In this document: positions 22,996 to 30,569 of the stretch, one piece after another
Position numbering within the stretch: the first letter of the stretch is position 1
Layout of the letters: every line of letters starts with the position of its first letter
IMG/VR virus record: IMGVR_UViG_3300037493_005297
Location: 1 to 30,630 of that record
DNA from: a virus
Direction: 5' to 3' (one strand)
DNA: 30,630 nucleotides
Program-made: the position numbers and the translations under genes
The notes under the pieces: model-generated
Database searches by the model: none
What the model saw: only the letters and a program-made list of their open reading frames with translations
Told to the model about the DNA's origin: nothing

Positions 22996-23253
22996 TCACG
23001 AGAGCACCGGCGGCGCGTCGTCGTCGTCGCCCCTGACCTCGTCGTCGTCGTCGTCGTCGCCCCTGACCTCGTCCTCCTCGACCTCGTCCTCCTCGACCTC
23101 CTCTTCGTCGTCGCCGTTGCGGCAGTCGCCGCAATCGCTCGCGCCGCACGTCGCATCGCCGCAACTGTAGCGGTAGCGCCGCCCGCCGCCGCCCTCGGCG
23201 CGAGCATCAGAGCGCATGTCCTCACGCCCGCCGTCGTAGTCGTAGTCGTACAT
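22996..23253 (-). CDS. Acidic Cys-containing protein with repeat-encoded Asp/Glu tail (85 aa)
   Basis: An 85-residue protein with the start fixed by GAGG 6 bases before the ATG at 23253. It begins MYDYDYDGGREDMRSD. It carries four cysteines in the middle (C31, C36, C41, C44), a possible metal site, and then a C-terminal half made almost only of Asp, Glu, Val and Arg (about 48-79). That tail is encoded by tandem DNA repeats, so its length may vary. Very acidic small phage proteins can mimic DNA and block DNA-binding host enzymes, but this is only a possibility here. The opposite-strand serine-rich frame is a shadow. Confidence 0.6.
   Translation of the reverse strand: MYDYDYDGGREDMRSDARAEGGGGRRYRYSCGDATCGASDCGDCRNGDDEEEVEEDEVEEDEVRGDDDDDDEVRGDDDDAPPVLS
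23017..23100. repeat. Tandem low-complexity repeats in acidic gene
   Basis: A 27-base match occurs at 23017-23043 and 23047-23073 (30-base period, encoding DEVRGDDDDD-like units on the minus strand). It is followed by two exact copies of the 15-base GTCCTCCTCGACCTC (23071-23085 and 23086-23100, five codons each). Both periods are multiples of three, so copy-number change keeps the frame. Confidence 0.9.
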
Positions 23254-27104: not shown

Positions 27105-27746
27105 ATGGAAAATGTACGAAGCCCCAACGCGTTTGGGCGCAGTCAGCAGGCGTGGTCGTTCTGGAAGCAGAAGTATGAGGCCGCACAGAACGAAAAAGAG
27201 ATCCAGGCCGTATTGTCGGAAGAACTTCAGGACGCGGGCTATGCCGTGCATTCTGAAGTCAAATGCGTTCTGCCTTTGGATGGCTCTCGAACCGGCGAGT
27301 ACAAGACTCGTCGGATCGACCTATGGGCGATGCGGCGCCAGCAGGACGGCATTTTTCAGCCGCTCCAAGATCAGCGGATCATGCCGGGCTGTGCCTTTGG
27401 TGTTGAACTCAAGTACACAAAGGAGCATCGGCACATCTCCGACTGGCGCGTCGTTGCTGAACAGGCGAAGAGCGGCCTTCTTGCGTTTGACTGGCATACA
27501 TCGAGTCGTGGCGGGCGTTCGGTTCCGAAGCCGCAGTACATGCTTGTGGCCGATAACACTACGCTTCTACAGGACACGACTATCGATTTAGCAGAGCAGG
27601 AAGGGCAGCTTATGTCTAATGGCTGTTCGATTCTGCATCGAGACAAACACGGCGGGTTGTTTTTCCGAATTCATGTAGCGCGTACCAGCGTGATTGTTGT
27701 GCAGGTCACCCATCATCAGCATCGCGCGCCGTTCGTGCTGCCATGA
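27105..27746 (+). CDS. PD-(D/E)XK nuclease-like protein (moron candidate)
   Basis: A 213-residue protein with a PD-(D/E)XK-type arrangement: acidic residues in the N-terminal helix (E33, E39, E40) and E51, then RRIDLWAM (D72) and GVELKYT (E101, K103), followed by a helix with AEQAKSG. This pattern marks a Mg-dependent nuclease fold. Codon use is visibly different from all neighbours, with many A/T-ending codons (TTT, GAT, TCT, AAA). The hairpin lies upstream and there is only weak ribosome-binding sequence. Its TGA overlaps the primase ATG. A recently acquired gene with an anti-host, anti-competitor or recombination role is plausible; the exact substrate cannot be read. Confidence 0.62.
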   Translation: MENVRSPNAFGRSQQAWSFWKQKYEAAQNEKEIQAVLSEELQDAGYAVHSEVKCVLPLDGSRTGEYKTRRIDLWAMRRQQDGIFQPLQDQRIMPGCAFGVELKYTKEHRHISDWRVVAEQAKSGLLAFDWHTSSRGGRSVPKPQYMLVADNTTLLQDTTIDLAEQEGQLMSNGCSILHRDKHGGLFFRIHVARTSVIVVQVTHHQHRAPFVLP

Positions 27747-28657
27747 GTCTCTTCTCGGTCGTTCGCTGGCGCTCGTCCGTGGACCCGGTCGCCGAGTCGC
27801 GAGCCGAGATGACCTGGCGCGAGATGGGCGAGATGCTCGCGCCTGGCGCGGACCAGTGGCGCAGGTACGAGTCGAAGGCGGACATCCCTGGATGGTCGCC
27901 GGTGGCGTTGCGTGCCGGCGAGGACGGCGTCTATCGTCGTCGGGCTGCGCTGGTTGATACCGTCTCCTGCCTTGTGCTCGACCTCGACGCGGGCGACTCT
28001 GCCGAGGCCGTGGTCGGCGCGTTGCACGGGCTCGCGGCGTGCGTTCACACGACGTGGAGCTACACGGAAGAGCATCCGAAGTTCCGAGCCGTCATCCCGT
28101 TTGACGCGCCCTGTTTGATGCGTTGGTGGAGCGTCGTGTGGTCGTGTGCCGCGCGGTGGGCCACGTCGCGCGGCGTGCGTCCTGACCCCGCGACGAAGGA
28201 TCCGTGCCGCCTCTACTACCTGCCGGCGTGGCCTCCATCGGGGCTCGCTATGTCGAGGTGTCTCGAGGGGGAGCCGCTGTCGTGGCGGCGGCTGATGACC
28301 GACTACCCGGCGCCGAGGGCGCCCGAGCCTCGCGCGCCGCATGATGCGACGGTCATCCAGCAGGCGATCAGCGCGGGCGATGGCGGTGGCGACGTTCGCG
28401 CCGGGCGCTACCTGTCGGGTGTCGAGCGCGGCCTGTCGGCGACTGCCGAGGGCGGGCGCAACGCGGGCGCGTTCCGAGCTGGGGCGGCGCTTGGCGGACT
28501 GATCGCGGCCGGCACGGCGAGTGATGCGGTATGGAGAGGGCGCCTCGTCGGCGCGGCGATGGCGACGGGACTGGACCAGCGGGAAGCGGAGGCGGCAATT
28601 GACAACGGAATTACACGGGGGACGACCGATGGACGAGCACTTCCAGACCGACACTGA
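27743..28657 (+). CDS. AEP-superfamily primase (Prim-Pol-like)
   Basis: A 304-residue protein with archaeo-eukaryotic-primase features: the metal-binding DxD motif VLDLDAG (78-84), HTTWS (102-106), FRAVIPF (114-120) and KDPCRLYYLP (152-161), in the right order for phage Prim-Pol domains. It would make primers, or perhaps also extend DNA, at the start of replication. The C-terminal third (about 200-304) is a helical accessory region, possibly for helicase contact. ATG overlaps the nuclease stop. The helicase gene begins inside its last 29 bases, so the two are probably made together. Confidence 0.78.
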   Translation: MSLFSVVRWRSSVDPVAESRAEMTWREMGEMLAPGADQWRRYESKADIPGWSPVALRAGEDGVYRRRAALVDTVSCLVLDLDAGDSAEAVVGALHGLAACVHTTWSYTEEHPKFRAVIPFDAPCLMRWWSVVWSCAARWATSRGVRPDPATKDPCRLYYLPAWPPSGLAMSRCLEGEPLSWRRLMTDYPAPRAPEPRAPHDATVIQQAISAGDGGGDVRAGRYLSGVERGLSATAEGGRNAGAFRAGAALGGLIAAGTASDAVWRGRLVGAAMATGLDQREAEAAIDNGITRGTTDGRALPDRH

Positions 28658-29900
28658 GCGCATCGCGTTCGGGCGCGCCGAGGTGGACGCGCTCCTCACT
28701 CGCCCCGCGCCGACGAAGAAGGGCGCATCGCCGCCGCTGGCGTGCCTTGAGAATCTGAACATCATCCTGACGCGGGATCCCGTCATCGGCTTCCGCATCG
28801 GGTTCGATGCGTTCCGCAGGGCGCACACATGGGACCGGAAGGCGACGACGGATGAGGAGGAGACCCGCGTCAACACCGAGATCCAGATCGTCTACGGGCT
28901 GCGGTGCCCGACGGCTCTGATGCGTGAGGCGTTCTGTGCGGCGGCGCTGCGGCGCGAGTTCCATCCTGTTGTTGATTACCTCGGCGGCCTCGTCTGGGAC
29001 GGCGTCCCCCGCGCTGACTCGATCCTCCTCCGGTACGCCGGCGCCGCGGACACGGCGTTGAATCGCGCGCTCGGGCGGCGCTGGCTCCGTTCATGCGTGG
29101 CTCGCGTGCTCGAACCGGGGTGCAAGGTCGACACCGTCCTCATCCTTGTCGGCCCCCAGGGCGCGGGCAAGTCGTCATTCTTTCGCGCGATGATGCCGCG
29201 GCGCGAATGGTTCTCGGACACGCCTATCGACTTCAGCCACAAGGACGCCTACGCGCAGATGCAGGGCATCTGGGTCTACGAGCTCGCCGAGCTGGGAGGG
29301 ATGCGCGCCCGCGATGCCGAGACGATCAAGGCGTTCCTCGCCGCTGGCGTGGACCGCTTCCGCCCGCCCTACGCGCGCAACGTCGTGGAGCTCACGCGGC
29401 AGAACGTCTTCGTGGGCTCCACGAATGAGGACGAGTTCCTGGACGACCCGACGGGCGCGCGGCGGTTCTGGCCGGTGCGCGTCGGCGAGGTGGACCTCGA
29501 GGCCGTCAAGGCCGACCGCGATCAGCTCTGGGCTGAGGTCTACGAGGAGATGACGCCTGGCGTCGGCCGGCCTCTCCCGCCGTGGTGGCTGTCGCCAGAG
29601 GAGGACGCCGAGCTCGCCGAGGACCAGGTGGTCTACACGCGCGGCGATCCGTGGGGCGACATCGTCGCGGCGTGGACCTCGCCGCAGCACGTCACCGAGA
29701 TCGGCGTGACGGCCGCCGACATCCGCGACGGCGTCACCGTCGCTCACGTCCTCGGCGCCGTCCTCGCCATCGACGTCGGGCAACAGCACAAGGCCGCGGC
29801 GATGCGCGTGGCCGGGATCCTGACTCGCCTCGGGTGGCGAAAGAAGAAAGGCAGCTTCAACGGGCGTCGGGAGTCGCGCTGGTTCCTGTCGACCTCGTGA
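28629..29900 (+). CDS. VapE-like replicative helicase
   Basis: A 423-residue P-loop ATPase of the virulence-associated E/D5-like type. Walker A GPQGAGKSS is at 175-183, Walker B WVYELAEL at 215-222, and the family signature of sensor Asn and arginine finger STNEDEFLDDPTGARRFWPV at 264-283. The C-terminal region (about 350-423) has winged-helix-like segments (AHVLGAVLAI, AMRVAGILTRLGWRKKKG) that may bind the origin. The ATG at 28629 follows GGGGGA and overlaps the primase by 29 bases; the longer frame from 28521 is rejected. The candidate origin starts 4 bases after its stop. Confidence 0.88.
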   Translation: MDEHFQTDTERIAFGRAEVDALLTRPAPTKKGASPPLACLENLNIILTRDPVIGFRIGFDAFRRAHTWDRKATTDEEETRVNTEIQIVYGLRCPTALMREAFCAAALRREFHPVVDYLGGLVWDGVPRADSILLRYAGAADTALNRALGRRWLRSCVARVLEPGCKVDTVLILVGPQGAGKSSFFRAMMPRREWFSDTPIDFSHKDAYAQMQGIWVYELAELGGMRARDAETIKAFLAAGVDRFRPPYARNVVELTRQNVFVGSTNEDEFLDDPTGARRFWPVRVGEVDLEAVKADRDQLWAEVYEEMTPGVGRPLPPWWLSPEEDAELAEDQVVYTRGDPWGDIVAAWTSPQHVTEIGVTAADIRDGVTVAHVLGAVLAIDVGQQHKAAAMRVAGILTRLGWRKKKGSFNGRRESRWFLSTS

Positions 29901-29905
29901 GCGCC

Positions 29906-29942
29906 TACACCACCTACACCACCTACACCACCTTGCACCACC
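29906..29942 (+). repeat. Left iteron array, TACACCACC x3 plus one variant
   Basis: Copies at 29906-29914, 29915-29923 and 29924-29932 are exact. After one extra T, TGCACCACC (29934-29942) differs at one base. A 9-bp period is close to, but not exactly, one DNA helical turn, so bound proteins would be slightly staggered. Confidence 0.95.
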
Positions 29943-30006
29943 TTTTGGAATAGAGGCTAAGTAGATGAAGATTAGTATATATACTCTATTGGGAAAGGTG
30001 GGGTTT

Positions 30007-30042
30007 GGTGGTGTAGGTGGTGTAGGTGGTGTAGGTGGTGTA
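30007..30042 (-). repeat. Right iteron array, four exact copies in opposite orientation
   Basis: GGTGGTGTA occurs at 30007-30015, 30016-30024, 30025-30033 and 30034-30042. These are reverse complements of the left array. A degenerate copy GGTGGGGTT (29997-30005) precedes them, mirroring the variant copy on the left. Confidence 0.95.
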
Positions 30043-30059
30043 GCTCCGCGAGGCGGACG

Positions 30060-30569
30060 ATGAGCCGCCCGAAGCCCCCGCCCCCGCCCCTGCCGTCAAT
30101 GCCCGCGCCGATCACCTGGGGCCAGTACGTCGCGACACCGGCGCCGCCGCTCGACCTCGGCGGGCGGGTGCGCTGGCGCCTTGTCGGGCCAGGCGTAGAC
30201 AGGTGGTTCAGCTGGCGCACGCGCGAGGCCGCGGTGCGCGACGTCGCCGAGTGGATGCGGGCGACGGGGCTTGACGTGTCGCCGGCGGCGGCGACCCAGG
30301 CGTGGATGGAGTTTCCGGCGCCGTCGCTCACGCTCTCGCCGGGCCTGGTAGAGAGGGCGCCTCGAGACAGGCGGTACTTGCCCGAGCACGACGGGCCGTT
30401 GCCGCCGTGGGCCGTCGTGAACGAGGACAAGGAGCCGCTCGCGTGCATCATCGTCGGGTGTCGACAGCGGATGAACTCTCGCCGGCTCTGCAAAAGCCAC
30501 GACACCATGGCGAGAAGGGCAGGAGTGAGGCACCGTATCGGGCCGTTGTCGTCGGGAGAGGCCTCTTGA
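30060..30569 (+). CDS. Hypothetical protein with C-terminal zinc-ribbon-like motif (169 aa)
   Basis: A 169-residue protein beginning SRPKPPPPPLPSMPAPITWG, with a middle part WFSWRTREAAVRDVAEWM and a C-terminal metal-binding pattern: C129, C134, C144 and H147 (C-x4-C-x9-C-x2-H, ending RRLCKSH). This resembles the small Cys/His modules found near the ends of many phage proteins. GAGG precedes the ATG at 30060. It is the last gene before the genome end and would precede the packaging genes on a circular map. DNA binding is possible; no function is established. Confidence 0.6.
   Translation: MSRPKPPPPPLPSMPAPITWGQYVATPAPPLDLGGRVRWRLVGPGVDRWFSWRTREAAVRDVAEWMRATGLDVSPAAATQAWMEFPAPSLTLSPGLVERAPRDRRYLPEHDGPLPPWAVVNEDKEPLACIIVGCRQRMNSRRLCKSHDTMARRAGVRHRIGPLSSGEAS

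Follow-up and report, generated by a model that had tools for sequence, protein, structure and literature searches.

SaPI and PICI origins lie directly 3′ of the rep gene, where two sets of iterons are arranged around an AT-rich region (PMC6092414, PMC7581432), and this layout was described as shared with no other known replicon (PMC6092414). A 2018 study of primase partners listed the VirE (PF05272) ATPases as experimentally uncharacterised, predicted helicases (PMC5862659). VirE/VapE helicases are common in phages. Among other initiators, P4 alpha is a primase-helicase whose DNA-binding C-terminus reads short iterons, and P4 also uses a second cis region, at a distance from the helicase gene. 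In lambda-type origins, the iterons adjoin an AT-rich melting region. The PICI paper mentions P4 alpha with its ori (PMC6092414). The origin of lambda lies within its initiator gene, and the initiator recruits the host helicase via P (PMC5499656). Here we describe a site of about 140 bases, located 3′ of the VapE gene of viral record IMGVR_UViG_3300037493_005297 (30,630 nucleotides, the whole of which is referred to as the window), that is very probably where copying of the phage DNA starts.

Replication genes and the adjoining repeat arrays

The window carries matches to a terminase large subunit, a major head protein and a tape measure protein, and the record is therefore a phage, not a satellite. 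Its replication genes and the site that follows them are arranged as follows.

27743–28657, + strand: primase partner, weakly matching the primase segments of primase–VapE fusions
28629–29900, + strand: VapE initiator-helicase (PF05272; Pfam 2.3e-76; 7pds match; AlphaFold mean pLDDT 89.4)
29712–29888, + strand: codons of the C-terminal winged helix, predicted iteron reader (residues 398–456 of the ORF that opens at 28521)
29904–29943, + strand: left iteron array, three copies of CCTACACCA and the variant CTTGCACCA, terminating in ...CACCACCT
29944–29995, no strand: AT-rich core, presumed melting site (31% GC, the lowest of any 52-mer in the window)
29996–30043, − strand: right iteron array in the opposite orientation, variant GGTGGGGTT and four copies of GGTGGTGTA

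The VapE ORF spans 28521–29900 and opens at a GTG (28521); the ATG at 28629 is the likelier start, because the first ~40 residues are of low confidence in the model. When a profile was built from 48 VapE proteins, a single solved structure matched strongly, 7pds (E=1e-102), over the ATPase and the greater part of the C-terminal domain. This entry is titled PriRep1 with dsDNA, with the molecule name ‘Similar to D. nodosus vapE’, and we take PriRep1 to be the Rep of SaPI1. The AlphaFold model (residues 50–459) superimposes on 7pds with a Z score of 31.9 over 394 residues, reaching the C-terminus. Profile and model both identify VapE as homologous to PriRep1 of SaPI1, an initiator-helicase of solved structure. 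The winged helix comprises three helices in the model (398–402, 407–414 and 424–436) and a hairpin (439–456). The preceding gene, at 27743–28657, has a PHROG DNA primase match (9.8e-14) and, by tblastn, matches the N-terminal segment of VapE fusions from phages of Clostridioides and Paenibacillus.

The first repeat begins after the VapE stop at 29900 and three intervening bases; the sequence-only reading had correctly placed the site against the gene and had counted a gap of four. Two opposed arrays of a 9-bp repeat (CTACACCAC) bracket the core. Direct reading of the letters bears out the composition given earlier, three exact copies and one variant on the left, one variant and four exact copies on the right. 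The exact left copies start at 29904, 29913 and 29922 and the variant at 29932, 10 bp after the preceding copy, whereas on the right the variant starts at 29996 and the exact copies at 30007, 30016, 30025 and 30034. The exact copies within each array are 9 bp apart, and the core-proximal copies are spaced by 10–11 bp, not 9. The right array ends at 30042, or at 30043 in the register CTACACCAC/GTGGTGTAG. The arms of the site form a 52-nt inverted repeat that is 87% complementary.

The AT-rich core in a GC-rich genome was likewise confirmed, with 31% GC in the core against 68% across the window; no other 52-mer in the 30,630 bases is as low. Seven copies of the repeat, in both orientations, fall inside 200 bp, the next best place in the window holding three, and the window contains no exact copy of the 9-mer outside the site. 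Among 60 first-order shuffles of the window, none reached seven copies and one reached six, without a simple-repeat filter. GC skew, which had been named as a check, gives no switch and no origin signal at the site, in a window that is a fragment only.

Three other features of the window are recorded here. Directly 3′ of the site, positions 30060–30569 hold a 169-aa ORF without a significant Pfam or PHROG match. At 22–1215, one phage protein combines a ParB-like N-terminal domain with a DNA methyltransferase domain, and a 30-bp tandem repeat of 3.4 copies lies in a GC-rich stretch at 23016–23117.

Recurrence of the layout 3′ of VapE

The same repeat occurs in the same place in two distant phage contigs, L005/L114 and L018, whose VapE proteins are ~31–32% identical to that of the window. 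An exact search for the bipolar pattern returned one other viral contig, L005, with its repeats just 3′ of VapE (32% identity in the helicase region), and no match in genome contigs; L018 emerged from a tandem-repeat search, with the repeats again 3′ of VapE. The motif TACACCACCTACACCACC is present in 102 viral contigs, and tblastn detects VapE in two of these only (L005 and L018) in the DNA examined. Most of the other contigs carry their copies inside open reading frames and were set aside. We note that a single-protein search of the viral contigs with the window VapE found no relative, whereas an alignment-based search did.

Both L005/L114 and L018 have a second compact opposed iteron pair, CTACACCACCT...AGGTGGTGTAG, around a short AT-rich spacer, which sits between the VapE stop and the main arrays and is absent in the window. 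In L114, from ~6564 on, and in its relatives L115–L119, the gene of a small HTH-like protein directly follows the arrays, and this protein is a possible second player at the origin. Five further contigs (L021, L028, L051, L069 and L095) have longer one-direction TACACCACC arrays outside long ORFs, with no VapE detected in the DNA examined.

Opposed arrays of other sequences are seen by eye 3′ of VapE in Corynebacterium phage Dina (TTGTCCC), Caulobacter phage Jess A (GTAACCAC), Staphylococcus phage 2638A (CGTCCCTT/GTGCCTTT), Rhodobacter phage RcJoli (CTCACC) and Paenibacillus phage Jacinda (ACTGCAACA). Pseudomonas phage vB_Pae_U5, also by eye, has TGTCCCAC arrays with one extra gene between VapE and the arrays, and the streptococcal satellite Javan652 has AAACTACA arrays at the same location 3′ of VapE.

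For a systematic survey, 174 VapE loci were gathered from viral contigs, genome contigs and phage records. A first test used 71 loci that were non-redundant at 90% identity and had sufficient flank, and located in each the 300-bp stretch with the most copies of a repeat, both strands counted. This stretch fell inside the 1.5 kb 3′ of VapE in 53 loci, where length alone predicts 12.3. A stricter score, requiring tandem copies in both orientations, was applied to 57 non-redundant loci; such repeats occur within 1.5 kb 3′ of VapE in 37 of the 57, inside the VapE gene and upstream of it in none, and at 1.5–3 kb in three. The corresponding counts in the redundant set (n=125) are 74, 0, 1 and 11. 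About a third of the surveyed loci fail the array test. The most common repeat spacing is 9 bp (65 of 123 spacings), followed by 8 and 10 bp. The layout and the spacing therefore recur while the repeat sequence varies. The AT-rich core is milder across the relatives than in the window, with a median core GC of 0.50 against 0.61 at the end of VapE. The sequence-only reading had proposed to judge the site by whether its repeats are absent in close relatives, a question that is ill-posed, as the layout is conserved among relatives and the sequence is not.

The survey finds this putative kind of origin to be widespread in ordinary phages, and indicates that the uniqueness claimed for the PICI origin layout (PMC6092414) is contradicted. 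A literature search, with most subscription journals outside its coverage, found no description of such origins for VapE phages. Opposed 8–10 bp repeats around an AT-rich core just 3′ of VapE provide a rule for finding the candidate origin of many VapE phages, and tie phage replication to satellite replication.

The winged helix and the iterons differ together

The L114–L120 family, in which the VapE proteins are ~70% identical or more, displays four iteron types when read by eye.

L114: TACACCACC
L115, L117: AAGACAGAT
L116, L118: TGGGACGGA
L119, L120: GGACCATAT

Between L116/L118 and L119/L120, most 50-column blocks of the VapE alignment up to column 700 are 80–100% identical. In the block after column 700, identity between the two types is 64–66%, compared with 96–98% within one iteron type. 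The DNA identity of the same pairs drops ~100–150 bp before the VapE stop and is low through the arrays. We observe that the winged-helix codons and adjoining iterons of these four loci differ as one block, from the last ~150 bp of the gene to ~+120, and that L120 retains some TGGGACGGA-like copies next to its GGACCATAT type, as if mid-transition.

Across 101 loci, and with a correction for core identity, VapE segment 420–455 has the strongest tie to iteron identity (0.034, against −0.01 to 0.017 for the other segments), and none of 1000 permutations, which ignore relatedness, reached this value. The sequences are not independent, and between those sharing less than 45% core identity the covariation is weak. 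In disjoint close pairs, the neighbouring segment 345–419 drops similarly (P 0.0002 and 0.0006). Some near-identical VapE pairs, for example L182/L254, were scored with different iterons, probably through an error of motif calling. The comparison of L116/L118 with L119/L120 is stronger evidence than the 101-locus covariation.

In the L114–L120 family, sharp changes in the winged helix coincide with sharp changes in the repeats, which indicates VapE as the binder; judged from alignments and the model, its C-terminal winged helix is more likely to bind the arrays than the RHH or the XRE protein. A further proposal, which we advance tentatively and rate a little short of an even chance, is that a fixed frame of ~9 bp and two opposed sets leave the repeat sequence free, and that the winged-helix codons and the iterons form one cassette, exchanged or evolving together, by which specificity has repeatedly changed while the helicase motor was kept. 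Such cassette change, if true, may serve to avoid cross-initiation, incompatibility, or capture by satellites with the same kind of origin. The winged helix is a testable candidate reader of the origin, and the survey yields helicases that are close relatives, with most of their differences in winged helix and iterons, which makes them ideal for swap experiments. What takes the finding beyond the routine is how widely the rule applies, and that winged helix and iterons appear to change like a cassette.

Proposed origin function and alternative explanations

In the mechanism that we propose, VapE would act as a self-loading AAA+ (SF3/D5-like) initiator-helicase, with its C-terminal winged helix recognising the 9-bp iterons. 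Each of the opposed arrays would load one oligomer, presumably a hexamer, beside the AT-rich core, with the two facing each other. The core would then melt, the separated strands would be taken by the two helicases, and the neighbouring primase would supply primers for bidirectional replication. We also considered the idea that the 9-bp spacing might match the subunit offset of a helical hexamer. The origin role proposed by the sequence-only reading is supported by the homology to PriRep1, the published SaPI/PICI layout (PMC6092414, PMC7581432) and the presence of the same layout in most relatives, and because of these it is the best reading of the site; we hold the explanation as a whole, from iteron reading to bidirectional replication, to be highly likely.

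Opposed repeats are typical of operators too, and in the L114 family the site is followed closely by the small HTH-like gene. The arrays might be a regulatory operator with no role as an origin, on which an XRE or RHH repressor, or VapE, controls transcription of the replication genes or of the gene downstream. We consider this improbable: positions 29700–30300 contain no sigma-70-like promoter match, the replication genes precede the site rather than follow it, the iterons change together with the VapE winged helix, and an AT-rich core between the arrays suits melting better than repression. An extra regulatory role of the arrays beside origin function is possible. The 52-nt inverted repeat might alternatively be transcribed into an RNA hairpin, either a terminator or a processed RNA, with a very stable predicted fold (−94 kcal/mol, z −10.7). 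That stability, however, follows from opposed copies of one repeat; the locus has no terminator-like site and no Rfam family match, and extra opposed copies and uneven spacing in L114 and L018 break the single hairpin, whereas the iteron layout and spacing are kept. An RNA function is accordingly very unlikely.

The ParB-domain/methyltransferase protein encoded at 22–1215 would be in keeping with an iteron-based site for partition, incompatibility or packaging. Its gene is at the opposite end of the record, the arrays accompany VapE in many phages, and the array sequence tracks the VapE C-terminus, all of which make such a site very unlikely.

Comparison with known systems

A lambda O-type origin was ruled out, as the iterons are not within the initiator gene: the arrays (29904–30043) lie outside the VapE gene and VapE is itself the predicted helicase. 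P4 alpha with its ori and crr is alike in being an initiator-helicase with a C-terminal iteron reader, a role that is predicted for VapE; P4 alpha is absent among the structural matches listed, which is uninformative either way.

The SCCmec Cch2 operon is a further parallel: direct repeats immediately after it are bound by the C-terminal domain of its D5-type initiator-helicase, and it includes a primase partner (PMC7581432). It differs in that just three 5-nt iterons are reported and that the priming partner, CCPol-MP, is a polymerase with a small partner (PMC7581432). The same paper places Cch2 nearest to SaPI5 Rep (PMC7581432), whereas the window VapE is closest to 7pds (PriRep1).

Like the SaPI/PICI origins, the site lies immediately 3′ of the gene of a homologous initiator-helicase (7pds, E=1e-102; Z 31.9 over 394 residues), with its arrays three bases past the stop, and two iteron sets bracket an AT-rich region, as in the published definition (PMC6092414). 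Published work assigns iteron recognition to the C-terminal domain of Rep; the corresponding winged helix of VapE is predicted and covaries with the iterons. Unlike SaPI/PICI, which are satellites, the window is a phage that carries genes of its own for terminase, head and tape measure, which rule out its identity as a PICI, a helper-dependent satellite, and its primase is a separate small gene. In sum, the site is, to judge from its sequence, a SaPI/PICI-type rep–ori replicon, here in a full phage.
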